A stretch of DNA of 64,000 nucleotides, taken from Desulfolutivibrio sulfodismutans DSM 3696. GTDB taxonomy: Bacteria; Desulfobacterota; Desulfovibrionia; Desulfovibrionales; Desulfovibrionaceae. The stretch covers positions 2,811,001-2,875,000 of the forward strand of contig NZ_CP045504.1 of the NCBI RefSeq assembly GCF_013376455.1. The letters are read 5' to 3'. This document shows, in pieces, positions 10,642 to 25,332 of this stretch. The translations under genes were made by a program, and so were the position numbers. Every line of letters begins with the position of its first letter. Positions within the stretch are counted from its first letter, which is position 1. Under the pieces are notes generated by a model. That model saw only the letters and a program-made list of their open reading frames with translations. It was not told where the DNA came from and made no database searches.

Positions 10642-11481
10642 TCAGCCCCCGCTCTCCCGCCCCGGCGCGGGGCCGTCAAAAAAAGATCGCCCCTCCCCGT
10701 GGCCAGGCTCCCCATACTCCACCGATTCCAGACACAGCCCCCGGGCCGGGGCGGTTGCCGGGGCCCGGGTTCTGTCCCCTTCGGACAACAGGGAGCGGAC
10801 GTCGGCGGGGGAGATCTTCCCTTTGCCCACGGCTACCAGACAGCCCATGACATTGCGCACCATCTGCTTGAGAAACCCGTCGGCCGTAAACCGCCAGACC
10901 GTCTCGAAGGGGGTCTGCCCCGGCGACGCGGCGACGGATTCCATGGTGCGCACCGTCGTTCCCACGTCCGTGCCGGTATTTTGCATGGCCGCGAAATCGC
11001 GCCGGCCCAGGAACTCCTGGGCCGCCAGGGCCATGGCCTGCCGGTCCACGGGGCCGCAGGCCCAGACAAAGGGACGCCGCTGGGGATAGACAAATTCCGG
11101 CTCGGTCCACAGGGTGTAGGCGTAGGTCTTGCGCACCGCCCCGAAGCGGGCATGAAATCCCAGCGGAGCGGGTCCGGCCTCCACCACGGCCACATCCTCC
11201 GGCAACAGGGCGTTGAGGGCCCGCCGCCAGGGCAGCCCGGCCCGGGTGCCCGGCACGTCGGCGTGGACCACCTGGCCCAGGGCGTGGACCCCGGCGTCCG
11301 TGCGCCCGGAACCGATGGCCCGCACCGGCCGTCCGGTAAGCGTCGCCAGGGCCTTTTCCACAACCCCCTGCACCGTGCGGTCCCCGGCCTGAAGCTGCCA
11401 GCCGTGAAACCGCGTGCCGTCGTAGGCCACCACCAGGCGCAGTCGAAAAAGGGATTCCGGCCCGGACTGGTCCGAAATCAT
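10642..11481 (-). CDS. truA: tRNA pseudouridine(38-40) synthase
   Basis: A 279-residue enzyme that isomerises uridines in the tRNA anticodon arm. The catalytic Asp lies in the signature GSGRTDAGVHALGQV. Other landmarks are VAYDGTRFHGWQ at the start, AVRKTYAYTLW, and FLKQMVRNVMGCLV near the end. The ATG at 11481 overlaps the stop of the GH57 gene (ATGA) and gives a normal length; an earlier in-frame start would add 28 unrelated residues. The pairing with a glycosidase gene is probably just operon packing. Confidence 0.95.
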   Translation of the reverse strand: MISDQSGPESLFRLRLVVAYDGTRFHGWQLQAGDRTVQGVVEKALATLTGRPVRAIGSGRTDAGVHALGQVVHADVPGTRAGLPWRRALNALLPEDVAVVEAGPAPLGFHARFGAVRKTYAYTLWTEPEFVYPQRRPFVWACGPVDRQAMALAAQEFLGRRDFAAMQNTGTDVGTTVRTMESVAASPGQTPFETVWRFTADGFLKQMVRNVMGCLVAVGKGKISPADVRSLLSEGDRTRAPATAPARGLCLESVEYGEPGHGEGRSFFDGPAPGRESGG

Positions 11482-13739
11482 CCGGCGAACCACAAGAGTT
11501 CGGCCAGGGGACGGCAGGCCCCGCGCCCGCCAAACCGCTCCCACAAAAGGTTCTGCACCGCCCACCAGTCCGGATCAAATCCAATGGCCCGGCCCCGGGC
11601 CACGGCCAGGGCCAGGGCCGCAAAATCCGGTTCCGGCCCGGACAGCCGGTCCAGAAACTCCCGGAGCACCCGCTGCGCAAGCGCCGCAGCGCCGGGGTTG
11701 TCCTTCCCCGTGGCGCGCAAAAAGGCGTCCAGCAGGGCCGCCCGGCCAGGGGTCAGCTCCGGCCCGAACAGGCGATGCCACACAAGCCCCGGATACATCC
11801 CGACCCACAAGGGGGCCAGATTGACCGTGACCTGGGCCTCCTGAATCTCCGGCAAAAGCCGCAGGCCCTTGGCGGCCAGGGCCAGGGAGGCCTCCCACAG
11901 GCGGGACTCGGCGTGCCCGGCCAATGTGTCGGCCGCAGCCTGCCGCTTGTTCCAGGCCAGGCCCGCAGCCTCAAGGGCCACGGACTCCTGCCTGTCGCCG
12001 TTCGGCCAGGACAGGCAGGCCCGGCCTCCGGGAAGGCCGCCGCCCGCTCCCGGGGAAAGCGACAGCCCGTACCGCTCCAGGCGGCTTTCCAGGGTCCAGG
12101 CCAGGGAGAACGTCCCGGTGGCGCAGCCATCCCCCGTGGCCGCGTCCAGGCCCACGGAGGCGGTCACGGCGGGCCAGGCCACGGCCTGCCCCGGACTGCC
12201 GGGTCCGGGCAGGCGGTCCTCGGCCTCAAGGGTCACAAGCGTCTGCAGGGCCAGGGTCTTCACCGTGGCCCGGCGCGGCGTGACCAGGTTGTTCCAGACG
12301 TCGCGGCCGTCGCCCATGGCCGGGTCGTTGGAGCAGGCCTTTTCCAGCTCGCGCAAAAAACGCTCCTCGGGATCGACCATGCCCGTATCCCGGGCCAGAT
12401 CCATGGCCCGCAGGGCATAGGTCAGGGCGTTGACCGGCTCGATGCGGGTCAGCTCGTCGAAAAACCAGGCGCAACTGGCGAACGAGGACACGGCGAAGCG
12501 CTGCATGGAGAGAAGCGTCCAGGCCAGGGAGCGTTTGTCGGCGGCAAGCCCGGGGACAAAGCGGGCCGATTCGAAATCGGCCTTGTCCATGGCCCCGCAC
12601 AGCACCTCGCCATAGGCCAGAAGCGCCCCCCGGGGATCGCGGAAAAGGCCCTCCCCGACGGCGAAATAGTGGGCGTCCACCTCCGCCTTGAGCAGGTTCA
12701 GGGCGTCGCGCAAGGGCCCGCGCCATTTCTGGTTGTAGCCCGGGTGCTCGCCGTTGGTGCAGCCGCAGTCCGAACGCCAGCGTTCCACCCCGTGCACGCA
12801 GCTCCAGGCCGAAGGCTCGCGCAGCCACACCCGGTGCTGGGGCGGGTTTTTGGCCAGATACGCCCCGAAATTGGTGGGCGACAGGCCATCGCGGCCCGAG
12901 GCGGCCTGGGCCATGACATAGGCCAGGGCCATCTCCCCGAACTGGAAATGGTGGCCATAAGTCTCACCGTCCGTGGCCAGGGCCAGAAGCCCGGGTCCGG
13001 CCGCGCCCGAGAGCCTGTGCCAGAAGTTCTCGCCATCGGCCAGAAGCCGCTCGAAGGCCACGGCCTGGGACAGGCCGCCGTGGTAGAAAAAGATGTCCAC
13101 ATGCCGCCCCGACGGCAGCATGGCCCGGTAGGGCCGGGTGATGTCCAGATCCCATTCGGACACGGCCCGGCGGCCGCCGCCGTCCAGATCGGCCACAAAG
13201 GCCGCCTGGCACGGGGCCAGCACGGTGAAGGCGATGCCGTTTTCGGCCAGCACCTCCAGGGAGGCCGTGTCCACGGCGGCCTCGGACAGCCACATGCCCT
13301 CGGGGTCGCGGCCGAAACGATGCCGGAAATCGGCCACGGCCCAGCCCACCTCCAGATGCTTGTCCAGGTCCGAAGCCAGGGGCAGGATCACATGGTGGCA
13401 GACCTGGGCCAGGGCGTTGCCGTGCCCAAGCCTGGCCAGGCTTGCCCGGTCGCCCACCACCACCCGGGCCAGGGTCTCGGGGGCCTGTGCGGCCATCCAG
13501 CGGCACAGGGTGGGGCCGAAGTTGAAGCTGATCCATTCGTACAGGTTGAAGATGTCCATGATCCGCCCCGTGCCGTCCAGGCGGCGGGCCCGGGACAGGG
13601 GGGCGTAGGACTCCCGGCAGATGCGCTCGTTCCAGTTGGCGCTCGGCGCGGCGCTGCCCTCGGGCAAAAGCGCCCCAAGCCAGGGGTCTTCCCGGGGAGG
13701 CTGGTAGAAATGGCCGTGGATGCACAAAAATCGGTCCAT
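11478..13739 (-). CDS. Glycoside hydrolase family 57 protein with DUF3536-type C-terminal region
   Basis: A 753-residue protein, probably cytoplasmic because it has no signal peptide. It begins CIHGHFYQPPREDPW, the first conserved GH57 block. The later blocks are GMWLSEAAVD, whose Glu sits where the GH57 nucleophile is expected, and ATDGETYGHHFQFGEMAL, which contains the expected acid/base Asp. The C-terminal 450 residues are Ala/Leu-rich and look like the DUF3536 extension found with such enzymes. GH57 members act on alpha-glucans; the substrate here is unknown. ATG at 13739 has a good aaggag site. It overlaps truA by four bases. Confidence 0.85.
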   Translation of the reverse strand: MDRFLCIHGHFYQPPREDPWLGALLPEGSAAPSANWNERICRESYAPLSRARRLDGTGRIMDIFNLYEWISFNFGPTLCRWMAAQAPETLARVVVGDRASLARLGHGNALAQVCHHVILPLASDLDKHLEVGWAVADFRHRFGRDPEGMWLSEAAVDTASLEVLAENGIAFTVLAPCQAAFVADLDGGGRRAVSEWDLDITRPYRAMLPSGRHVDIFFYHGGLSQAVAFERLLADGENFWHRLSGAAGPGLLALATDGETYGHHFQFGEMALAYVMAQAASGRDGLSPTNFGAYLAKNPPQHRVWLREPSAWSCVHGVERWRSDCGCTNGEHPGYNQKWRGPLRDALNLLKAEVDAHYFAVGEGLFRDPRGALLAYGEVLCGAMDKADFESARFVPGLAADKRSLAWTLLSMQRFAVSSFASCAWFFDELTRIEPVNALTYALRAMDLARDTGMVDPEERFLRELEKACSNDPAMGDGRDVWNNLVTPRRATVKTLALQTLVTLEAEDRLPGPGSPGQAVAWPAVTASVGLDAATGDGCATGTFSLAWTLESRLERYGLSLSPGAGGGLPGGRACLSWPNGDRQESVALEAAGLAWNKRQAAADTLAGHAESRLWEASLALAAKGLRLLPEIQEAQVTVNLAPLWVGMYPGLVWHRLFGPELTPGRAALLDAFLRATGKDNPGAAALAQRVLREFLDRLSGPEPDFAALALAVARGRAIGFDPDWWAVQNLLWERFGGRGACRPLAELLWFAG

Positions 13740-13872: not shown

Positions 13873-15051
13873 TTACGGCTTGGGCGACACGCCGTCGCCG
13901 AAGGTTTTTCTGGCCATGGCCCCAAGCGCGGCCTCGATCATCCGGTTTTCCCCGTCGCGCAGGACCGGGGTGTAGGCATAACAGATCTCCAGGCTTCCCG
14001 TGTCCCGGTAGCGAATCAGGGCCACGGCCGCTGCGGGCCAACTCCAGACCAGATGTTCCGACACCCCGGGAGAAACCGTGGCGAAGGAACCGTACTTGGC
14101 CTCGTAGGCCGCGCGCAAGCGCTCGAAGTCGCCTGGGGCGGGTTTTTTAATGACTAAGATGACATAAAACAGCTTGTCGTCGCGAAACGAATAGACCTCG
14201 TCGTCCACGACGATGCCCCCGATGCGCCGTTTCTCCCCGGCCCGGCGGTAGTGGCGCACGTCCTTGTGGACAAAGAGATATTCCATGTTCCGAAGGTCCG
14301 CCACATGTGCGCCGAAGGGGATGCCCCCGAAGCCGTCCGGGGGCGGCTGCTTGGCGTATACGGCGATGCCGGGCCGCAAAAAGACCGGATCGCCGGGAAC
14401 GGGGTCCGGGGCCTCGGCGCGCATGCGCTCCACCCCGGGCAGGTGGGTATAGCTGATGGACAGGGAGTCCTCCAGGATGTCCCGGTCCAGGGCGATCTGG
14501 GCCTGGGGCCAATTCCACAGGTAGTTTTCGTCCAGGGACGTGGCGTTTTCCAGGGGCGGGCCGTACTTGGCGGCATAGGCGGTTCGTAAGGCGGCGATAT
14601 CCCCGGGCTCACGGGCCCGCATTTGCACATGAAAGAAGCTGTCGCGGTAAAATCCGTAGAGGATGTCCTTTAAACGCACCTCGCCGATCTCCAGGTTGTC
14701 CCCGGTACGGCGGTAATAGGCTACCTCTCCGGCGCCGTAGAGATATTCCAGGTCCGGATGGCCCGTCGGCGAGGCCCCCCAGGGCAGCCCGCGAAACCCC
14801 ACCGGTCCCCGGGCCTTGATCTCCTGCGCCTCCCGGTCGTCGACAGGGGCATCGGGAGCCGTCTCCACGGCCCCCATGTCGTTGGGGACGGCGGACGGGG
14901 AGGACGCGAGGGGAGCGGACGGGGCGGACGGTTCCGGGGACTGGCCAAGGGCCAGGGCCGAAAACGCCAGAGGGGCCAGGATCAGGATGACCGCCACGAA
15001 AAAAAACGGACCCGGTCGGCGCGGCCAGGCAGATATGGTCGAAGGCGTCAT
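13873..15051 (-). CDS. Exported protein with two tandem copies of an unrecognised ~125-residue domain
   Basis: A 392-residue protein with an N-terminal hydrophobic segment (FFFVAVILILAPLAFSALALG) and then a low-complexity Ser/Ala/Pro linker. Two homologous halves follow, at about residues 83-210 and 240-370. Each has a GF.G(L/I)P.GA start, LEYL or MEYL, a YYRR or HYRR block, a Y.FR.D..F core, an LR.AY.AKYG block, and (N/S)WP.A.(I/V)AL near the end. This is a clear internal duplication. I do not recognise the domain. Its start codon overlaps the stop of the upstream HAMP-sensor gene, so both are likely made together. It could be a periplasmic partner of that protein. Confidence 0.7.
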   Translation of the reverse strand: MTPSTISAWPRRPGPFFFVAVILILAPLAFSALALGQSPEPSAPSAPLASSPSAVPNDMGAVETAPDAPVDDREAQEIKARGPVGFRGLPWGASPTGHPDLEYLYGAGEVAYYRRTGDNLEIGEVRLKDILYGFYRDSFFHVQMRAREPGDIAALRTAYAAKYGPPLENATSLDENYLWNWPQAQIALDRDILEDSLSISYTHLPGVERMRAEAPDPVPGDPVFLRPGIAVYAKQPPPDGFGGIPFGAHVADLRNMEYLFVHKDVRHYRRAGEKRRIGGIVVDDEVYSFRDDKLFYVILVIKKPAPGDFERLRAAYEAKYGSFATVSPGVSEHLVWSWPAAAVALIRYRDTGSLEICYAYTPVLRDGENRMIEAALGAMARKTFGDGVSPKP

Positions 15052-16220
15052 CTGGCGAAGCTGCGCCCGAAGCGCCTGGACACCTCGCGCAGGGACTCGG
15101 CCAATATCCCCACCTCGTCGCGGCCGGAGACGGACAGCCCCTTGGGCACGCGGCCCGTGGCCAGCTCAAAGGCGAAAGCGGCGCACCGGGACACGGGAAT
15201 CCCCAGGAAGCGCACGGCCAACACGATCCATACCACGCCAAAGGCCAGGGTCAGGACCAGAAGGGTCCACAGGAGGGACTTTTGCACGGTCAGTTCCGAG
15301 GCAAAGGCCTCCATACCCTTGCGCTCCACCACGGCGGCGCTTTCCACGGCCCGGGAGGCGGCCTCCAGGGCGTCGCGCTCGGCCAGGGCCAGGGTCCGCC
15401 CCGAGGCGTGCAAAAGCTCCCATTCCTTGGCCAGGTGTCCGGCGGCCTTGTCGAATTCCCCGGCCACGGCGGCGATCTCCATCGCGTCCTTGATGTCGGC
15501 CTCCGAGGCCTGGGGGCGCAACCCCTCCACCAGGGCGTCCACGCCGCCCAGGCGCTCCATGGCCGCGCGCAAAATCTCCGGCCGACGCACACGACCGGCC
15601 TCGGCCTCGGCCGCCAGCACCTCCCGGGCGATCCCGGCCAGATCCAGTGCATGGAAAATCTTGTCGGACACGGCGCGCACCAGCGTGCCCGGGGGATACT
15701 TGACCGCCAACTCCACCAGGGCCGCCTTTTTGCGCGCCGCATAGGCCTCGGCCAGATCCGCGAAGCGGTTCCCGGCGGCCTCAAAGGCGTTGCGGGCCTC
15801 GGCCACGGCCTCGTTTTGCCCCACAATGGCCTCGGCGGCCTTTTTATAGGCGTCCACCAGCCAGGCCACCCGCTCGGCCTCCTCGGCAAACTCGACGCCG
15901 CCCGCCCGGCTGGCCGACGCCTTCAGTTCCTGCATGCGCGTCAAAGCCACGGCCAGTTCCTTTTTGGCCTCCTCCAGGAAGTGCCGCTCCCCGGTCAGTG
16001 CGTAGCCGCGCAGATGGTGGGCCGTCAGCAGGGTCTGCCGCTCCAGGCGCGTGGCCGCCTCTCCCCGGCCGAAGGCCACCTGAGCCAGGGCCTCGGCGGA
16101 TCGCCCCGAGGCGTTCTGGGCCGTGGCCGCCGCCAGGCAGGCGATGACCGCCAGGGCCGTCGGCAGGCCTACGGCAAAAAGGATCTTCAAGGAATAGACA
16201 GGGATTTTCGGCATCTTCAT
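15048..16220 (-). CDS. Membrane sensor protein with HBM-like helical domain and HAMP, but no signalling output
   Basis: A 390-residue protein. It has a membrane helix at about residues 10-33, then a long helical extracytoplasmic region rich in Ala/Glu (about 38-310). This resembles the helical bimodular sensor module of chemoreceptors, with the block LTAHHLRGYALTGERHFLEEA. A second membrane helix lies at about 316-340 (LLWTLLVLTLAFGVVWIVLAV). A HAMP-like segment (FELATGRVPKGLSVSGRDEVGILAESL) runs to the end. There is no methyl-accepting, kinase or cyclase domain; the gene stops right after HAMP and overlaps the next gene by four bases. It is either a naturally output-less sensor or a remnant whose partner is the following secreted protein. 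Confidence 0.7.
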   Translation of the reverse strand: MKMPKIPVYSLKILFAVGLPTALAVIACLAAATAQNASGRSAEALAQVAFGRGEAATRLERQTLLTAHHLRGYALTGERHFLEEAKKELAVALTRMQELKASASRAGGVEFAEEAERVAWLVDAYKKAAEAIVGQNEAVAEARNAFEAAGNRFADLAEAYAARKKAALVELAVKYPPGTLVRAVSDKIFHALDLAGIAREVLAAEAEAGRVRRPEILRAAMERLGGVDALVEGLRPQASEADIKDAMEIAAVAGEFDKAAGHLAKEWELLHASGRTLALAERDALEAASRAVESAAVVERKGMEAFASELTVQKSLLWTLLVLTLAFGVVWIVLAVRFLGIPVSRCAAFAFELATGRVPKGLSVSGRDEVGILAESLREVSRRFGRSFAR

Positions 16221-16366
16221 GGAGCGTCTCGACTGGGTTGCCGACAGGTTTTCCGGCTCACTCCCCCATGGCCGCGCACGTCATGTCCAAAGCCGCTTTT
16301 CCTATACCGGTTTGGGCGGTTTCTTCAAAGAAAAAAAGGGCTGGACCATGCAGCGGTCCCTGTCGG

Positions 16367-17374
16367 CTATTCCAGCGAGTCTTTGATCTGCTTGAAAAAG
16401 GCCCGCAAAAAGGCCTCGGAAACGTCTTTCCCGTTGATGCGCAGCCGCTGGAACACGGCCACATGATTGTTTTTTTGGGTGATGGCGGCGCGAAAAGAAT
16501 GTTCGTGCCCCATGTCCTGGCCTCCGGCCTGCTCCAGCCCGGCCTTGCCGATCCGCCGGTCCACGCCGCGCAGGGTCAACACCCAGTCCTCGCCGCGCGG
16601 CGTCCAGGCGGCGTACATCTCCCCGGCGGCGTCCATGCGCCCGGCCCGGCGCAGGAGGTGGGTCTCGAATTCGCCCAGGCTGAAGGCCGCATTGTCCGGG
16701 CCGGTGATGCCCAGGTATTCGCCGCGCTCGGATAGGACCACCACGGGCAGGGCCAGGAAGGCCGCCGGGGGCGGGCCGGGAATGTCCGCGCCTGCGACGG
16801 CATGGGCGGCGTCGGCCCCGCGCCCGGCCAGTCCGGCCAGACGGGGCAGACCGGCCAGGGCGTCGAGCTTGGCCAGAAGCTCCACATGCAGGGAATGGGT
16901 GCGGCTGCCCAGGGCCACGAGCTCGGCCAGCATGGCCTCCAGGCGCTCCAGGCGACGGGCCGTGTCCCGCTGCGCCACGGCCTGGGCCTGCCCATGCAAG
17001 GCCTCCGCGCCCTGTCCGGCGTCCAGCCCTGCGCCCTCCGGGGTGGACTCACCGGCCGGGGCCTCCCGCCGCGAAGGGGGAAAAGCCTGGGGCGCGGGGC
17101 GCGGCATATCGTCGCTTATCGATAAGCGTTCATATTCTTCAACACCTGGGAAGTCTTTTTTTAAGGCGCTTTTTATGTCTTCCGTCGACAACCCACGTTG
17201 AAATCCACCGTGAATGGCCCGGCAGGCGGCCAGGGCCTCGGGGGCGAAGCGCAGGGGCTTGCCCCGCCCCACAGGAAGGATGGCCCCGGGAAACTTGGTT
17301 CGGTAACTTTTGATGGTGGTCACGGACACCCCAAGACGGTGGGCCAGATCCTTGTGGGTCAGTTCACGGCTCAT
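16367..17374 (-). CDS. MerR-like helix-turn-helix regulator with long unknown C-terminal region
   Basis: A 335-residue protein. Residues 1-80 form a winged helix-turn-helix of MerR type (LTHKDLAHRLGVSVTTIKSYR, then a LRFAPEALAACRAIH wing). A disordered Pro/Ala stretch and a short coiled coil (ARRLERLEAMLAELVAL) follow. The C-terminal domain (about 230-335) contains VVVLSERGEYLGITGPD and AAITQKNNHVAVFQRLRIN and is not one I recognise. ATG at 17374 has a ggagg site; an earlier in-frame start would add 23 unrelated residues. A palindrome occurs both upstream of the start and inside the gene, which suggests autoregulation. Confidence 0.75.
   Translation of the reverse strand: MSRELTHKDLAHRLGVSVTTIKSYRTKFPGAILPVGRGKPLRFAPEALAACRAIHGGFQRGLSTEDIKSALKKDFPGVEEYERLSISDDMPRPAPQAFPPSRREAPAGESTPEGAGLDAGQGAEALHGQAQAVAQRDTARRLERLEAMLAELVALGSRTHSLHVELLAKLDALAGLPRLAGLAGRGADAAHAVAGADIPGPPPAAFLALPVVVLSERGEYLGITGPDNAAFSLGEFETHLLRRAGRMDAAGEMYAAWTPRGEDWVLTLRGVDRRIGKAGLEQAGGQDMGHEHSFRAAITQKNNHVAVFQRLRINGKDVSEAFLRAFFKQIKDSLE
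17114..17127. promoter_or_regulatory. Perfect 14-bp palindrome inside the MerR-like gene
   Basis: gcttatcgataagc, a perfect inverted repeat within the coding sequence (Arg-Leu-Ser-Ile-Ser). Together with flanking bases it matches 15 of 16 positions of a second site upstream of the same gene. It is a possible operator. Confidence 0.45.
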
Positions 17375-17443
17375 GGGGGGAGCGCCTCCGGACGGGTCGA
17401 GGTGGCGGCGGGGCCGTACCTGCCGGGCCCTGCAATTCGTCAC

Positions 17444-17537: not shown

Positions 17538-18215
17538 TCAGAAGGGACGGCAGTGATGCTTGATGCTCACGCCCTTGACGATGAAGATGGTGGCCTCGGC
17601 AATGTTGGCCGCCTTGTCGCCGATGCGCTCCAGGGAACGTCCGGCCACCACCTCGTGGATCGACCGCTCCAGGCTCGGGGTGGTGCGGGACGAATCCTCA
17701 GCCTGCTGCAGGGCGTCTTTGAGCACCAGCACATTGAGATCGGCGATGCCCGCGTCCATGCGGCAGACCTCCTGGGCCAGGTCCGTGTCGCCGCCCTGAA
17801 AGGCGCTTAAGGCCTTGTCCAGCATCTCCGAGACCCGGAAGGCCAGTTCGTCCAGATGGGCAGGCAGGGGCGCGGACGGCAATTGGGAGAGGAAGATGGC
17901 CCGCTCGGCGATGTGCAGGGCCTCGTCCCCCACCCGTTCCAGGTCGATGGTCATGCGCATGGCCCCCACCACCCGGCGCAGATCCAGGGCCACGGGCTGC
18001 TCCAGGGCCAAAAGCCGCAGGCTGGTGTCGTCCAGTTCGCATTCCATGCGGTTGATCTCCGCGTCCCGGTCGATGACCTCCCGGGCCAGGGCCGAATCGC
18101 ATTCGGAAAAGGCCTTGAGCGCGTCGGCCAGGGCCTGCCGGGAAAGCGCGGCCATGCGCAGGAGCTTTTCCGTGAGGAGTTCCAACTCGGCGTGAAAATG
18201 GCTTCTGCCATCCAT
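17538..18215 (-). CDS. phoU: Phosphate signalling protein PhoU
   Basis: A 225-residue, all-helical cytoplasmic protein made of two PhoU repeats. Landmarks are ALADALKAFSECDSALAREVIDRDAEIN with LALEQPVALDLRRVVGAMR and DLERVGDEALHIAERA, and in the second repeat ERIGDKAANIAEATIFIVKG. PhoU links the Pst transporter to the PhoR kinase and helps keep the regulon off when phosphate is plentiful. ATG at 18215 is preceded by a strong aggagg site; the in-frame start 18 codons upstream is rejected. It is the last gene of phoB-phoR-pstB-phoU; pstS, pstC and pstA are not in the window. Confidence 0.95.
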   Translation of the reverse strand: MDGRSHFHAELELLTEKLLRMAALSRQALADALKAFSECDSALAREVIDRDAEINRMECELDDTSLRLLALEQPVALDLRRVVGAMRMTIDLERVGDEALHIAERAIFLSQLPSAPLPAHLDELAFRVSEMLDKALSAFQGGDTDLAQEVCRMDAGIADLNVLVLKDALQQAEDSSRTTPSLERSIHEVVAGRSLERIGDKAANIAEATIFIVKGVSIKHHCRPF

Positions 18216-18315
18216 GACTGTTCCTCCTGGCCGCTTGCGCCGCGCGAGGCGAGGCGGCCGCGTGACCATGAAAAAGGGATGAGGGATCTCTTCCGACGGC
18301 GTCCCGGCCGGGGCG

Positions 18316-19077
18316 TCAACCGAAACGGCCGGTAATGTAGTCCTCGGTCTGCTTGTTGGACGGGCGGGTGAAGATGGTCTCGGTGTTGTCGGTCTCCACC
18401 AGCTTGCCCATGTAGAAAAAGGCAGTCATGTCCGACACCCGGGCCGCCTGCTGCATGCTGTGGGTGACGATGATGATGGTGAACCGCTTTTTAAGCTCGT
18501 GGATGAGCTCCTCGATCTTCTGGGTGGCGATGGGGTCCAGCGCCGAGGCCGGTTCGTCCATGAGCACCACGTCCGGGGCCACGGCCAGGGCCCGGGCGAT
18601 GCACAGCCGCTGCTGCTGGCCGCCGGACAGGCCCAGGGCCGAATCGTGCATCCGGTCCTTGACCTCGTCGAAAAGCGCCGCGTCGCGTAGGCTCTTTTCC
18701 ACCTGCTGGGCGATGTAGGCGTTGTCGCGCACACCGTTGACCCGAAGCCCGTAGGCCACGTTCTCGAACACGGTCTTGGGGAAGGGGTTGGGCTTCTGGA
18801 AGACCATGCCCACCCGACGCCGCAGCTCCACCACATCCACCTCCGGGGCGTGGATGTTCGCGCCGTCCAGGGTCAGCTCTCCATCCACCCGGGTGCCCGG
18901 AATAAGGTCGTTCATGCGGTTGAGACACCGCAAGAACGTGCTCTTGCCGCACCCAGACGGCCCGATCAGGGCCGTGACCTGGTTCTCGCGAATCTCCAGG
19001 CTGATGTCGTGCAGGGCCTTGAAACTCCCGTAATAGAAATCGAGAGTGCGGGCCGCCATCTTGATTTTGTGCGCCAT
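18316..19077 (-). CDS. pstB: Phosphate ABC transporter ATP-binding protein PstB
   Basis: A 253-residue ATPase of the high-affinity phosphate importer. Walker A is GPSGCGKST, the Q-loop is VFQKPNPFP, the signature is LSGGQQQR and Walker B is VVLMDEPAS, followed by ALDPIAT and the switch His in [20 protein letters not shown] is typical of PstB. Of two nearby ATG codons the one at 19077 has the better spacing (eight bases) from the aagga site. It sits between phoR and phoU; its membrane partners PstC and PstA must be encoded elsewhere. Confidence 0.96.
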
Positions 19078-19131
19078 AACCATATTCCTTGTCGTTTGCG
19101 GACGTCCCCGAATCGGCCCGGGGCCGGGCCA

Positions 19132-20535
19132 TCAACCCTGGGGCGGCGCGCCAGCCTGGTCCTCGCCGGAAGGCGCAGCCAGGGTGAAGTAAAAGGCCGC
19201 CCCGGTCATCTCGCCACGAGCCCGCTCCACCCAGATGCGCCCGCCGTGGCGTTCCACAATGTGCTTGGCGATGGCCAACCCAAGGCCCGTGCTGCCCGTG
19301 GTCTTGGCCCGGTGCTTCTCTACCCGGTAAAAGCGCTCGAACACCCGCAGCCGGTCCTCGTGAGGCACGCCCGGGCCGTTATCCTGCACGCAGAAGGTCA
19401 CGGTCCCGTTACCCATCTGATGCGAGACCGTGACAAAGGAGCCTTCAGGGCTGTATTTCACGGAATTTTCCAACAGATTGCGAAAAACCTGGGCCAACTG
19501 CCCACTATCGGCCATGACCGGCGCCCCGGCCTCGGGGAGCTGGCTTTTGATCCCGATGCGCTTCTCCAGGGCCATGGACTCGCATTCCTTGCGGGCCAGC
19601 AAAAAGGCCTGGAGGGCGTCGGCCCGGGGCGGCGCGGCAGGCATGGGGCTGTCCTCGATGCGGGCCAGGCACAGCATGTCCTCGATCATCTTGGACATGT
19701 GGTTGGCGTTTTTTAAGATGACCTCCAGAAACCGCACCCGCGCCGGGGGCATGCCCGCCGTGTCCTGCAACAGCGTCTCGGCATAGCCCTTCACCGAGGT
19801 CAGGGGCGTACGCAGTTCGTGGGTGACGTTGGCCGCGAAGTCCTTGCGGGCCCGGTCCAGACGCTTGAAGTCGCTTAGGTCGTGGAACACGGCCACGGCC
19901 CCAAGCTCGCCCCGGGCCTCGCGCAGGCCCACCACGCTCACGTCGTAAAAGCGATCCTTGCCCAGCTCGATCTCGAGCGTCATCAGCGGGGGGGCGTCCT
20001 TGTCCGAAGAGGCCAGCACGGCGTCGCAGGCCGCCTGGAATCGGGCGCAGGGCACCACCTCGATGGGCGGACGGCCCATGCGCTCCCCGTTGCCGGGAAA
20101 GATCTGGTCGAAGGCCTTGTTCACGGCCCGGATCTTGCCCTCGGCGTCGAGGACCATGACCCCTTCCTTCATGCCGTTTAAAATGGCCTCAAGCTGGCTT
20201 TTCTGGGCGGTGATGGTCCGGATCTGCATCTCGATGCCCCGGGCCATCTCGTTGATCGCGGCGGCCAGGGTCTCGAATTCTCCTCCCCGGGGCACCAGCA
20301 GGCGCTTGGCGTAGTCGCCCCGGCCGATGGACTCGGCCACCTGGATGGTCTCCCGGATGGAGCGCGCCGCCCGGCGGCTTAAGAAAAACCCGGCGGCGGC
20401 GGCGGCGGCCAGGGCCAGAATGAGGGCCAGGGGGGCCTGGGCCATGGGCTGATCCGGAAAAAAGACCATCGGCAGGGCCAAGGCCAGGGCGGCCACGGCC
20501 GCAAAGGAGAGAAAAAGCCTCAGTCCCAGGGACAC
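19132..20535 (-). CDS. phoR: Phosphate-regulon sensor histidine kinase PhoR
   Basis: A 467-residue kinase with two close membrane helices (about residues 5-25 and 33-53) and almost no periplasmic loop, as is usual for PhoR. A HAMP region (about 54-110) and a PAS domain (about 115-225, LEAILNGMKEGVMVLDAEGKI) follow. The H-box THELRTPLTSVKGY has its His near 239. The catalytic domain has DNGPGVP and GSTGLGLAIAKHIVERHGG. It phosphorylates PhoB when phosphate is scarce; PstB and PhoU downstream provide the inhibitory input. The gene ends 54 bases before the pstB start. Confidence 0.93.
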   Translation of the reverse strand: MSLGLRLFLSFAAVAALALALPMVFFPDQPMAQAPLALILALAAAAAAGFFLSRRAARSIRETIQVAESIGRGDYAKRLLVPRGGEFETLAAAINEMARGIEMQIRTITAQKSQLEAILNGMKEGVMVLDAEGKIRAVNKAFDQIFPGNGERMGRPPIEVVPCARFQAACDAVLASSDKDAPPLMTLEIELGKDRFYDVSVVGLREARGELGAVAVFHDLSDFKRLDRARKDFAANVTHELRTPLTSVKGYAETLLQDTAGMPPARVRFLEVILKNANHMSKMIEDMLCLARIEDSPMPAAPPRADALQAFLLARKECESMALEKRIGIKSQLPEAGAPVMADSGQLAQVFRNLLENSVKYSPEGSFVTVSHQMGNGTVTFCVQDNGPGVPHEDRLRVFERFYRVEKHRAKTTGSTGLGLAIAKHIVERHGGRIWVERARGEMTGAAFYFTLAAPSGEDQAGAPPQG

Positions 20536-21313: not shown

Positions 21314-21383
21314 TTCTTGCGGCAAAGGGCAACACGACACGGGCGGGACGCATGGAGCGGGGGTTTCCGGGGCAGCCCGGCTT

Positions 21384-21401
21384 GCGTCACACGCCTGTCA
21401 C
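21384..21401 (+). promoter_or_regulatory. Pho-box-like site upstream of the binding-protein/kinase pair
   Basis: GCGTCAC-acgc-CTGTCAC on the plus strand, with 7+4+7 geometry; the second repeat matches the Pho-box consensus fully. It lies about 95 bases before the next gene's ATG, which hints that this pair belongs to the phosphate regulon. Confidence 0.6.
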
Positions 21402-21496
21402 GCATCAAAAGGATTGTCCGCTCCCGCACCGTTTTCGTCTTCCACCCCGGCGCTGTGCAATTTGACGCTTCAGGGCAAAGCCCATACAAGAGGAAT

Positions 21497-22810
21497 ATGG
21501 AATTGCCGCATGGCGGAGCCGTGGCCGCACGGCCCACTTTCCCCGATGGACCCGCCCGAGGCCTCCGGCCTTGTGCCGGTTCGTTTCCGCTTGTCCTGGC
21601 AGCCCTGCTTTGTTTCTGTCTCGCCGGGTTTGCGACGCCTGCATCCGGGGCCGAGGACATCCGCCTGGGCATGTCCGCCGGGTTCCACGGCCCTACCCGG
21701 GGGTTGGCCGTAGAGCTGTACCGGGGGGCCATGGCCTATTTCGACCACGTCAACGCCGAGGGTGGCGTGGACGGCAAAAAGATCGTCCTTTTGGCCCGAA
21801 ACGACGACTACGACCCCCTGCCCGCCATCGCCAACACCATCGCCCTGGTGGAGGACGACGTGGTGGCGCTTTTCTCCTATCTTGGCACCCCCACCGTGAC
21901 CCGGGTGCTGCCCCTGCTCAAAAGCTACGGGCAAAAAGACATCTGCCTGTTTTTCCCCTTCTCCGGGGCCCAGCCCCAGCGCGAACCCCCCTATGACCAG
22001 TACGTCTTCAACCTGCGGGCCTCCTACCGGGCCGAGGTCAAGGCCCTGGTGGACGCCCTGGTCACGGTGGGACGGACAAAACTGGCCGTATTCTACCAGG
22101 CCGACGCCTATGGCCGCAGCGGATGGGACGGGGCCCGGCTGGCCCTGGGCGCCCATGGCCTTTCCCTGGTGGCCGAGGCCACCTACCGCCGGGGCTCGTC
22201 CTTCGAGACCGACATGCGTCCCCAGGTGGAGATATTGCGCAAAAAGGCCCCCGACGCCGTGATCTCCGTGGGGGCCTATCCGGCCTGCGCCGCGTTTATC
22301 CGCGACGCCAGGGCCGCCGGGCTTAACGTGCCCATCGCCAATGTCTCCTTCGTGGGCAGCGACCTGCTGTTGCGGCTGCTTTTGCACGAGGGGCCGCGCT
22401 TTGGCCGCGACCTGACCCAAAACCTCATCAATTCCCAGGTGGTTCCCAGCTACGAGGATCTCAGCCTGTCCGCCGTGCGCCAGTATCGGCGGCTCATGGA
22501 GACCTACGGCGACCGGCTGCCCCTGGACCTGGTGCAGGGGGAATACCACCCGTTCCGCTTCAGCCAGGTGGGCTTCGAGGGCTTTTTAAACGCCAAGGTC
22601 ATGGTGGAGATCCTGCGGCGCATGCCCAATCCCCTGGACCGTTCCCAGCTTCGCGCCGCCGCCGAGGGCCTCCATGACCTGGACATCGGCATCGGCAGGC
22701 CGGTGCGGTTCGGCCCGGACCAGCACGATGGCCTGGACCAGGTGTTCCTGACCCAGGTCGTCAACGACCAGTTCGTCCCCATCCGGGACTTTTCGGTATT
22801 CGCCAAATGA
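21497..22810 (+). CDS. Periplasmic binding protein, branched-chain amino-acid type (Peripla_BP_6)
   Basis: A 437-residue exported protein. A signal peptide core (LVLAALLCFCLAGFATPASG) ends near residue 51; the mature part begins AEDIRLGMSAGFHGPTRGL. It has the two-lobe fold of LivJ-type proteins: AYFDHVNAEGGVDGKKIVLLARNDDYDP, then VVALFSYLGTPTV, KLAVFYQADAYGRSGW, ISVGAYPACAAFIRDA and NSQVVPSYED. No permease or ATPase gene is near. The stop overlaps the start of a hybrid kinase (ATGA), so it probably serves as the ligand sensor for that kinase. The start is less sure because the aagagga site is close to the ATG. Confidence 0.8.
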   Translation: MELPHGGAVAARPTFPDGPARGLRPCAGSFPLVLAALLCFCLAGFATPASGAEDIRLGMSAGFHGPTRGLAVELYRGAMAYFDHVNAEGGVDGKKIVLLARNDDYDPLPAIANTIALVEDDVVALFSYLGTPTVTRVLPLLKSYGQKDICLFFPFSGAQPQREPPYDQYVFNLRASYRAEVKALVDALVTVGRTKLAVFYQADAYGRSGWDGARLALGAHGLSLVAEATYRRGSSFETDMRPQVEILRKKAPDAVISVGAYPACAAFIRDARAAGLNVPIANVSFVGSDLLLRLLLHEGPRFGRDLTQNLINSQVVPSYEDLSLSAVRQYRRLMETYGDRLPLDLVQGEYHPFRFSQVGFEGFLNAKVMVEILRRMPNPLDRSQLRAAAEGLHDLDIGIGRPVRFGPDQHDGLDQVFLTQVVNDQFVPIRDFSVFAK

Positions 22811-25332
22811 AGATGTCCAAACTGTTCCGCAAGACCCTGGTGGCCATCGTCATCCTCTTCGGGGTGGTGGCCAACGCCTCGGCCCTGCTGTCGGCCTTTA
22901 TCCTCTATACGGACTTAACCGACGAATACGAGACCAAGGGCCGGGCCATCGCCGGGAGCATCGCCGAGGCCAGCGTGGAGATCCTGCAAAGCCGCGACGC
23001 CTCCACGGTCCAGGCCATGATCGACAAATTCCTGGACATCGAGGGCGTGGGATACGTCTATGTGCTCGACAACGAGGCCCGCATCATTTCCCATACCTTC
23101 GTGCCGGGCATCCCGGACGAAATCCAGAAGGCGCAGATCGACCCCTCAGGTTTCACGGTCAAGGACGTGGATCTGCCCGGCATCGGCGGTTTCATCCAGA
23201 TATCGGCACCCATCCTGGCCGGGGTGGCGGGAACGGTTTCCGTGGGCATGGCCAAAAACATCATCCACGCCAAGATCCGCGCCGCCGTCATCCAGCAGGA
23301 ACTGCTCATGCTGTTTATGCTGGCGGTGGCCGTGGTCGTGTTTTTCATGCTCATCAAGGGCATCTCCCGGCCGTTGATGGAACTTTCCGAATACGCCCAA
23401 AAGCTTCGCGCCCACGATTTTTCCGCCCGCATCATCATCACCTCGGACGACGAGGTGGGCCTCCTGGCCGCCACCATGAACTCCATGGCCGACGAGCTCT
23501 CCGATCTCGTCTCCGGCCTGGAGCGGGCCGTGGCCGCCTCCACCCGGGAACTCCAGGGCGCCTTGGCCCACATGCGGGCCATCATGGACAACATGGCCGA
23601 CGGCCTCCTGGTCACGGACGCCCACGGACGCATCACCAACGTCAACCCGCCCCTGGTCCACATGTTCGGCCTGGAGGGCGCGGACCTGACCGGCAAGGAC
23701 GCCCGGCAGCTCTTTTCCGGGGCCATGGCCGAGCTTCCCGAGGCGGCCAGGACCGCCCAGACCGCCATCCTCACCGCCGAGGTCCGCCTGGGCGGCGGCC
23801 GGGTGGGCAAGGCTGCGGCCTCGGCCATCCACTCCCACGCCGACGGCTCGGCCGGGCCGGACGCCGTGGCCGACGACGCCGCCACCTGGCTGGGAACGGT
23901 CATCCTGGTGCGCGACATCACCTCGGAGAAGGAAGTGGACCGGATGAAGACGGAGTTCATCTCCACCGTGTCCCACGAACTGCGCACCCCCCTGACCTCG
24001 GTCTTGGGGTTCGCCAAGATCATCCGCAAGAAATTCGTGGAGGACATCCTGCCCCGCCTGGATGCCTCGGACAACAAATCCCGGCGCGCGGCGGGACAGA
24101 TCGGCGACAACCTGGGCATCATCGTGTCCGAGGGAGAACGCCTGACGGAACTGGTCAACGACGTGCTGGACATCGCCAAGATGGAGTCGGGCAAGATCGA
24201 GTGGGATCTGCAACCGGTGACCATCGCCGAGGTCATTACGCGCAGCGTCACGGCCACCAGCGCCCTCATCGAACAAAAGGGCCTGTCCCTGGCCCAGGAC
24301 GTAAGCTTCGGCCTGCCGCAGTTTTTGGGCGACCGGGACCGCCTCATCCAGGTCATGCTCAACCTCATCTCCAACGCCGTGAAATTCACGGCCGCAGGCG
24401 GCATCACCATCCGGGCCTTCATTGATGGCGAGATGATCCGGGTGGGGGTGTCGGACACGGGCCCGGGCATCTCGGAAAACGACCAGCAGATCATCTTCGA
24501 GAAATTCAAGCAGGCCGGGGACACGCTGACGGAAAAGCCCAAGGGCACCGGGCTTGGCCTGCCCATCTGCCGCCAGATCGTGGACCGCCACGGCGGCCGC
24601 ATCTGGGTGGAGAGCACCCCGGGTGCGGGAAGCGTGTTCTGGTTCACCCTGCCCATTCGCGGCGCGTCCCGCCAGGATGCGGCCCATCCCGTGCAGCAAC
24701 CGGCCTTCCGGGACCGCCTCCTACCCCTGCCCGCCGAAAAAAACCAGGGCACCATCCTGGTGGTGGACGATGAGCCGCCCGTGCGTCTGTTTCTCGAACA
24801 GCTCCTGGCCGACGAGGGCTTCCGGGTGCTGTCCGCGTCCGACGGCCCCCAGGCCATCGAGATGGCCAAGGCCCACGCCCCGGACCTCATCACCATGGAC
24901 CTCATGATGCCCGGCATGGACGGCACGACCACCATCCGGCATCTGCGCGCCGACCCCGCCACGCGGGACATCCCTGTGGTGGTCATCTCCGCCCTGCCCG
25001 CCCGGGAACGGGAACAGGCCGGGGGCGACGCCTGCATGGTCAAGCCCGTGGACGAAAGCGCGCTCATCGAAACCATCGTGAGCCTGCTTCGCGGGGCTGG
25101 CAAGGACACCCGGCCGTGCATGGTGCTTAAGCGCAACGGCGCGGAAAGCACCAACCCCCTCTTGATGATCTGTCCGGGCAAGGTCCAGCACACCACCCGG
25201 GAGGAGTTATGGAAACGCCTGGAGGAAGGATTTTCAGGCACGGTCTTCATTCCGGGCTCCATCAGCCATGAGATGGACCTCGCCCGCCTGTCGGCCCACC
25301 CCAACATCCATGTGGTGATCTTTGCCGAATGA
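22807..25332 (+). CDS. Hybrid sensor histidine kinase (Cache-HAMP-PAS-HisKA-HATPase-receiver)
   Basis: An 841-residue kinase. It has a membrane helix at about residues 10-35, a short Cache-like periplasmic domain (to about 160), a second helix at about 165-185 and HAMP to about 245. A PAS region starts near 258 (AIMDNMADGLLVTDAHGRI). The H-box SHELRTPLTSV has its His near 390. HATPase motifs are DTGPGIS and KGTGLGLPICRQIVDRHGG. The receiver has ILVVDDEPPV and a phospho-Asp near 698 (MDLMMPGMDG). About 70 residues after the receiver form a small C-terminal unit I do not recognise. No DNA-binding partner is adjacent. It is translationally coupled to the binding protein. Confidence 0.88.
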   Translation: MKMSKLFRKTLVAIVILFGVVANASALLSAFILYTDLTDEYETKGRAIAGSIAEASVEILQSRDASTVQAMIDKFLDIEGVGYVYVLDNEARIISHTFVPGIPDEIQKAQIDPSGFTVKDVDLPGIGGFIQISAPILAGVAGTVSVGMAKNIIHAKIRAAVIQQELLMLFMLAVAVVVFFMLIKGISRPLMELSEYAQKLRAHDFSARIIITSDDEVGLLAATMNSMADELSDLVSGLERAVAASTRELQGALAHMRAIMDNMADGLLVTDAHGRITNVNPPLVHMFGLEGADLTGKDARQLFSGAMAELPEAARTAQTAILTAEVRLGGGRVGKAAASAIHSHADGSAGPDAVADDAATWLGTVILVRDITSEKEVDRMKTEFISTVSHELRTPLTSVLGFAKIIRKKFVEDILPRLDASDNKSRRAAGQIGDNLGIIVSEGERLTELVNDVLDIAKMESGKIEWDLQPVTIAEVITRSVTATSALIEQKGLSLAQDVSFGLPQFLGDRDRLIQVMLNLISNAVKFTAAGGITIRAFIDGEMIRVGVSDTGPGISENDQQIIFEKFKQAGDTLTEKPKGTGLGLPICRQIVDRHGGRIWVESTPGAGSVFWFTLPIRGASRQDAAHPVQQPAFRDRLLPLPAEKNQGTILVVDDEPPVRLFLEQLLADEGFRVLSASDGPQAIEMAKAHAPDLITMDLMMPGMDGTTTIRHLRADPATRDIPVVVISALPAREREQAGGDACMVKPVDESALIETIVSLLRGAGKDTRPCMVLKRNGAESTNPLLMICPGKVQHTTREELWKRLEEGFSGTVFIPGSISHEMDLARLSAHPNIHVVIFAE

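Follow-up and report, generated by a model that had tools for sequence, protein, structure and literature searches.

A HAMP domain is generally seen as relaying a signal from the input to the output of one chain. What, then, would be relayed, and to what, by a receptor whose chain stops where its HAMP domain stops? This question is raised by a locus of Desulfolutivibrio sulfodismutans DSM 3696, where the gene for such a receptor (SENS) is followed directly by the gene for a secreted protein in which an unnamed domain occurs twice (DUPL). The window, i.e., the whole stretch of DNA analyzed here, spans 64,000 nucleotides, and its relevant features are collected in Table 1. The SENS-DUPL pair is real, conserved and not ordinary, joining an HBM-HAMP receptor that stops at HAMP to a secreted partner of its own, which is built from copies of an unnamed domain. 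No description of receptors ending at HAMP was found in the open-access literature, a body of work with most subscription journals outside its coverage.

Table 1. Features of the SENS-DUPL locus, in positions of the window
Feature	Positions	Strand	Basis
GH57/DUF3536 protein of 753 aa, lacking an evident signal sequence	11478..13739	-	PF12055 7.8e-48, PF03065 1.3e-12
DUPL, secreted protein, 392 aa, unnamed ~124-aa domain present twice	13873..15051	-	ORF and ortholog alignment
DUPL half 2, residues 236-375	13927..14346	-	match to half 1; profile match E 1.3e-41
DUPL half 1, residues 82-215	14407..14808	-	match to half 2; AlphaFold2 pLDDT 93.6
ATGA overlap, SENS stop/DUPL start	15048..15051	-	sequence
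SENS, output-less receptor, 390 aa: TM1 - HBM periplasmic domain - TM2 - HAMP - stop	15048..16220	-	ORF and ortholog alignment
SENS HAMP, residues ~339-390, with conserved basic tail at end	15051..15206	-	ortholog alignment and Pfam
SENS periplasmic helical domain, HBM fold, residues ~47-307	15300..16082	-	AlphaFold2 model vs PDB structures
Terminator-like hairpin between HTH gene and SENS	16343..16359	-	consensus scan only
HTH gene, MerR-type, 358 aa, lying between phoU and SENS; C-terminal half unassigned	16367-17443		
PhoU	17538..18269	-	TIGR02135 2.8e-55
PstB	18316..19083	-	TIGR00972 1.1e-122
PhoR-type kinase: HAMP-PAS-HisKA-HATPase	19132..20535	-	HAMP at residues 51-102

A receptor that ends at its HAMP domain

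The preliminary description had spoken of an HBM-like sensor ending right after HAMP, and this anatomy is borne out. Two hydrophobic segments (residues ~6-35 and ~312-351) enclose ~280 helical residues, and no residues follow the HAMP domain. Pfam HAMP (PF00672) matches 14 of the 15 aligned orthologs, positioned after TM2 (best 2.4e-8); the HAMP domain of the window SENS is too divergent for Pfam by itself and gives a weak match only, its HAMP region also matching the HAMP part of the NCBIfam MtrB/WalK/MCP models at 1e-5 to 2e-4. Pfam HBM (PF16591) matches five of the 15 (best 4.5e-5), the window SENS itself being unmatched. An MCP signalling domain (PF00015) was found neither in SENS nor elsewhere in this region of the window, and HisKA and HATPase are likewise absent, the chain ending at residue 390 and the 15 orthologs giving no Pfam match to them. 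The HAMP domain and the tail that closes it are among the most conserved parts of the ortholog alignment: the tail consensus R-R-x-G-[RK]-x-[LF]-A-R-stop is present in nearly all 15 sequences, and residues invariant across the two genera that carry SENS include L339, G340, P342, V343, R345 and C346 and, further along, E369, L373, A374, L377, E379, R383, G385, A389 and R390.

The periplasmic part was assigned through an AlphaFold2 model built from eight sequences, which has a mean pLDDT of 76 and is best in this part (~80-97 over residues 131-280). Its closest structural relatives are McpZ (Z 19.1, 2.9 Å, 236 residues), McpS (2yfa; Z 18.9, 2.8 Å, 235 residues) and the TorS sensor domain (Z 17.5-18, 2.5-2.9 Å, 220-250 residues; for 3o1j, Z 17.9, 2.7 Å, 250 residues), with the TorS-TorT complex structures 3o1h/i/j ranking among the closest folds; PilJ follows at Z 15.9 and unrelated bundles score near 14. 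As modelled, the SENS periplasmic domain has the bimodular helical fold that characterizes HBM. SENS thus resembles McpS, McpK and McpQ in carrying an HBM fold between two transmembrane segments followed by HAMP, but each of these has the MCP signalling domain that SENS does not.

Orthologs of SENS occur in 16 genomes from two genera of the Desulfovibrionaceae, three from its own genus and 13 from Solidesulfovibrio. All 15 sequences in the alignment end at residue 390; in the Solidesulfovibrio genome G190, SENS is split over two contigs. A search of 199 genomes from the family divides the SENS matches into two groups, namely the orthologs ending at 390 and full-length chemoreceptors, whose open frames are mostly ~660-890 aa and which are ~20-28% identical to SENS. 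In a tree of the 15 SENS sequences and 13 homologous receptors, the output-less proteins all lie on one side of a branch with 100/100 support, and long branches separate them from the receptors. Identity between SENS proteins of the two genera is ~32-37% in most pairs. Nei-Gojobori dN/dS for SENS is ~0.06-0.46, and dN is below dS in all pairs for SENS, for DUPL and for the SENS HAMP domain, the HAMP values being noisy in close pairs; SENS is under purifying selection.

Other short-frame matches to SENS (G211 C1, G153 C44, G129 C1 and the contig-edge G132/G085) are frameshifted or cut MCPs; in two of them (L222 and L223, in G211 C1 and G153 C44), the chemoreceptor genes of relatives run into frameshifted sequence after HAMP, unlike SENS. 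The preliminary description had named a sign of truncation, namely relatives whose locus encodes a kinase or chemoreceptor domain; such a domain was looked for on the SENS orthologs and at their loci and was found in none of the 16 genomes with SENS. Homologous MCPs do run on for ~275-310 residues past the SENS end point, but the end point and conserved tail that 16 species from two genera share, the single tree group, dN/dS below 1, the absence of an MCPsignal remnant from the window and the different appearance of truly broken receptors led us to reject truncation or pseudogene formation, and we consider it extremely improbable that SENS is a decaying chemoreceptor.

The secreted partner and its unnamed domain

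DUPL was first described as two homologous halves of ~125 residues behind a signal sequence or anchor, and we find the same: the halves are 38% identical over 125 residues (E 3e-27), a common 124-position profile matches each at ~1e-41 or better, and the N-terminus carries one strong hydrophobic segment (residues ~12-39). From its sequence this segment is probably a cleaved signal peptide, though it may alternatively be an uncleaved anchor. DUPL has no match in Pfam (up to E 10) or NCBIfam, the periplasmic binding-protein and protease families included, and PDB sequence searches with DUPL and with the half-domain gave no useful match. Searching 44 members of the half-domain family against Pfam and NCBIfam likewise gave no name for the domain, the only matches being to fused or unrelated domains (LysM, nuclease). 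DUF6301 was rejected as a name; it matched three members (best 9.7e-4), and a whole-genome search gave only sub-threshold matches elsewhere.

Structural prediction of the halves, which had been proposed as a check, yields a confident model. The half-domain, which carries a conserved Y-x-R-R site, forms a separate 134-aa alpha+beta unit in an AlphaFold2 model from 22 sequences (pLDDT 93.6, pTM 0.85). Its best PDB match is the YdcD double-wing (Z 7.1, 3.7 Å, 107 residues), and the best structural matches as a group, i.e., the YdcD double-wing, the TagH C-terminal domain, DUF4309 (YjgB) and PsbP-like proteins, lie at Z ~5-7 with 0-13% identity, a background-level range expected without a true relative, and with no common motif shown. 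We accordingly do not assign the fold, nor do we call it new.

The preliminary description had placed an unfamiliar duplicated domain in this pair. The domain indeed has no Pfam or NCBIfam name, but it is not unique to the pair, being spread through the Desulfobacterota as an unnamed secreted domain. Many Desulfovibrionaceae encode proteins with a single copy, secreted or lipoproteins, as do some two dozen further genomes in the sample of the phylum, and the window genome has three further members, one with LysM domains and two standing alone. Single half-domain genes have diverse neighbours, with no recurrent partner among 82 flanking ORFs. Tandem-domain DUPL proteins, on the other hand, were seen only in genomes with SENS; a scan of the genome collection with DUPL, using ortholog-specific patterns, gave seven loci, all in Desulfovibrionaceae. 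Solidesulfovibrio DUPL has three domain copies (~494 aa), of which the middle one is closest to half 1 of the window protein (46-49% identity) and the last aligns with half 2.

Several members of the family are joined to other domains. Fusions of the half-domain with two or three LysM domains occur in the window genome, two sister genomes and one Solidesulfovibrio (L018, at G000:C1:4147226, L017, L019 and L016), which suggests a peptidoglycan-linked role for the family. In another Desulfobacterota genome it stands behind a staphylococcal-nuclease-like region (L089:1027-1749). In a single case (G249, L107:1-2037), a secreted half-domain gene is followed ~20-30 nt later by a histidine kinase with a helical sensor, HAMP and PAS, and a sigma54-type response regulator gene lies upstream of the two, a KinB-AlgB-like order. 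This may be an independent link of the half-domain to a HAMP sensor, possibly relevant to SENS-DUPL.

Gene order around the pair

As the preliminary description suggested might be checked, the pair is kept in other genomes, SENS and DUPL being stably paired there. In every locus long enough to show it, the order is a divergent binding protein and hybrid kinase, then phoB, phoR, pstB, (phoU and the HTH gene), SENS, DUPL and GH57. Within this block, phoU is present in the window's own genus only, Solidesulfovibrio carrying it elsewhere, and the HTH gene is found in two of the three own-genus genomes and is absent from the third and from Solidesulfovibrio. Further PhoU and PstB copies are encoded elsewhere in these genomes. 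The PhoR of the block has almost no periplasmic part, too little to hold a sensor domain there. At the far end, the divergent Peripla_BP_6 binding protein and Cache-HAMP-PAS hybrid kinase (window 21317-25332) adjoin phoB and hold the same place in both genera.

The four-base overlap reported for the window is present as the ATGA shared by the SENS stop and the DUPL start, but it is limited to the window's own genus, where all three genomes have it; in Solidesulfovibrio the two genes are separated by 3-21 nt. In all examined loci GH57 is the gene immediately following DUPL, and in most Solidesulfovibrio the GH57 match starts ~6-10 nt past the DUPL stop. Because these gaps are so short, the tightly packed unit is SENS-DUPL-GH57. 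The two genes taken at first as a sensor/partner unit are a real pair, but the unit comprises three genes and sits in a conserved phoB-phoR-pstB block. Upstream of SENS the gap is ~150-340 nt; the hairpin found there in the window comes from a consensus scan whose yield, 11 hairpins against 9.4 expected from shuffles, is not above shuffles. In the window's own genus truA-panC-metK follow GH57, and these are not matched in the Solidesulfovibrio loci, so that the order differs downstream of GH57.

GH57 also occurs apart from the pair. Across 20 further genomes of the order, its gene stands with neither SENS nor DUPL nor phoB-phoR-pstB beside it, and no ancestral MCP or kinase related to SENS was found upstream of it in these 20. 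In two of them, from two other genera, a histidine kinase gene unrelated to SENS lies directly upstream of GH57/DUF3536 (L174:2834-4486 and L172:6435-9002); one encodes a soluble PAS kinase (G018) and the other a hybrid membrane kinase (G011), neither matching the SENS profile. In G016 a chemoreceptor (MCP) lies ~6.5 kb away. GH57 may be linked to signalling genes in its own right.

Possible roles of SENS and DUPL

The preliminary description had considered a signalling or mechanical unit between periplasm and membrane, and either would be a putative role. The reading that we tentatively prefer is that SENS and DUPL form a conserved two-part receptor, with DUPL as the periplasmic partner, the HAMP domain acting in trans and PhoR as the best candidate target. 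DUPL would be exported to the periplasm and would serve as the soluble partner of the SENS HBM domain, either as a ligand-bearing co-receptor or as a regulator. SENS would relay its state across the membrane to the HAMP bundle and the conserved basic tail, and its HAMP domain would contact a second protein, located in the inner membrane or the cytoplasm. Kinase, cyclase and chemotaxis domains are all missing from SENS, and we infer from this that its HAMP domain signals in trans. The candidate encoded close upstream is PhoR, a HAMP-PAS kinase whose HAMP domain starts so early that almost no periplasmic part precedes it, and the locus thereby puts a kinase-less sensor next to a sensor-less kinase. 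It is common, however, for PhoR kinases to have no periplasmic sensor, their control being ascribed to PstB/PhoU, and for this reason the complementarity is suggestive only and not specific.

That DUPL would bind SENS is argued by analogy with other HBM domains that have protein partners, TorS-TorT and CtpL-PstS. TorS is an HBM-type sensor that takes its signal from the periplasmic protein TorT, and its periplasmic fold class is the same as that of the SENS model (Z ~18 over 250 residues); TorS, however, runs on into HAMP and a kinase. CtpL, the chemoreceptor of Pseudomonas aeruginosa for low phosphate, has been described as an HBM receptor (PMC5126104); it does not bind Pi and instead binds PstS 1:1 with a KD of 3.7 µM (PMC4926252). 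The two systems share a tie to phosphate, through a periplasmic protein for CtpL and through adjoining pst/pho genes for SENS, but CtpL is a full chemoreceptor whose partner is PstS, and the phosphate link of SENS comes from gene order alone. DUPL, moreover, is not a binding protein of the PstS or TorT type.

The shared end point across 16 genomes, the single tree group and the selection on SENS, DUPL and the SENS HAMP domain all favor the trans-acting receptor, as do the confinement of tandem DUPL to SENS-bearing genomes and the retention of gene order at such low SENS identity, when the order downstream of GH57 has changed. Synteny across two related genera may nevertheless be partly inertia, the gap and possible terminator upstream of SENS would permit a transcript independent of the pho genes, and the tightest-packed neighbour of the pair is GH57, whose own link to signalling is putative. 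The anatomy, the HBM fold of the model, the missing output, the single tree group, the selection and the gene order are shown; binding of DUPL to SENS, signalling by HAMP in trans and the involvement of PhoR, or of phosphate, are inferred.

Signalling might instead run outward. A cytoplasmic partner would bind the HAMP domain or basic tail of SENS, which would hold or release DUPL, and DUPL would be not the input but the effector. To our knowledge, every HBM domain characterised to date is an input, and DUPL carries no enzymatic signature, whereas the combination of a missing output with a conserved basic C-terminal tail would be in keeping with outward control, and the LysM domains of the secreted relative L018 fit a role at the cell wall. 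A precedent is provided by LapD, through which HAMP receptors are known to be able to signal outward (PMC4359373). LapD-LapG resembles SENS-DUPL in pairing a HAMP-containing inner-membrane receptor with a periplasmic protein, but LapD has a cytoplasmic c-di-GMP-binding (GGDEF/EAL) module and LapG is a periplasmic cysteine protease, neither of which is present here; SENS has no cytoplasmic ligand-binding domain at all. We regard outward control as unlikely.

It is similarly doubtful that SENS passes no signal and merely docks DUPL at the inner membrane, perhaps with GH57 inside. Such a tether would explain the missing output domain, would suit the tight packing of SENS-DUPL-GH57 in Solidesulfovibrio and could use the two or three DUPL domain copies as a scaffold, but it would need neither an HBM domain nor a HAMP domain under purifying selection, and HAMP and tail are among the best-kept parts of the protein. 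Mixing of SENS with full-length HBM-type MCPs in chemoreceptor arrays, so as to modulate them, is quite improbable: SENS does align over its whole length with such MCPs and the genome encodes many (29 PF00015 matches), but the region responsible for CheA/CheW binding and for trimers of dimers is missing from SENS, the tree sets SENS apart from these MCPs by a long branch, and the block gave no match to a chemotaxis gene.

Taken at its most specific, the trans-acting receptor would represent a class of split receptor in which a HAMP-ending sensor acts on a HAMP kinase that is a different protein and has no sensor of its own (PhoR), while a secreted protein from a new domain family, dedicated to this sensor, carries the signal in the periplasm; in this full form we think the proposal improbable as yet. 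The SENS-DUPL pair gives a functional context to an unnamed secreted domain family that is spread through the Desulfobacterota, and it is a possible new input to phosphate control. A receptor that ends at HAMP and is conserved across two genera offers a natural test of HAMP signalling in trans.
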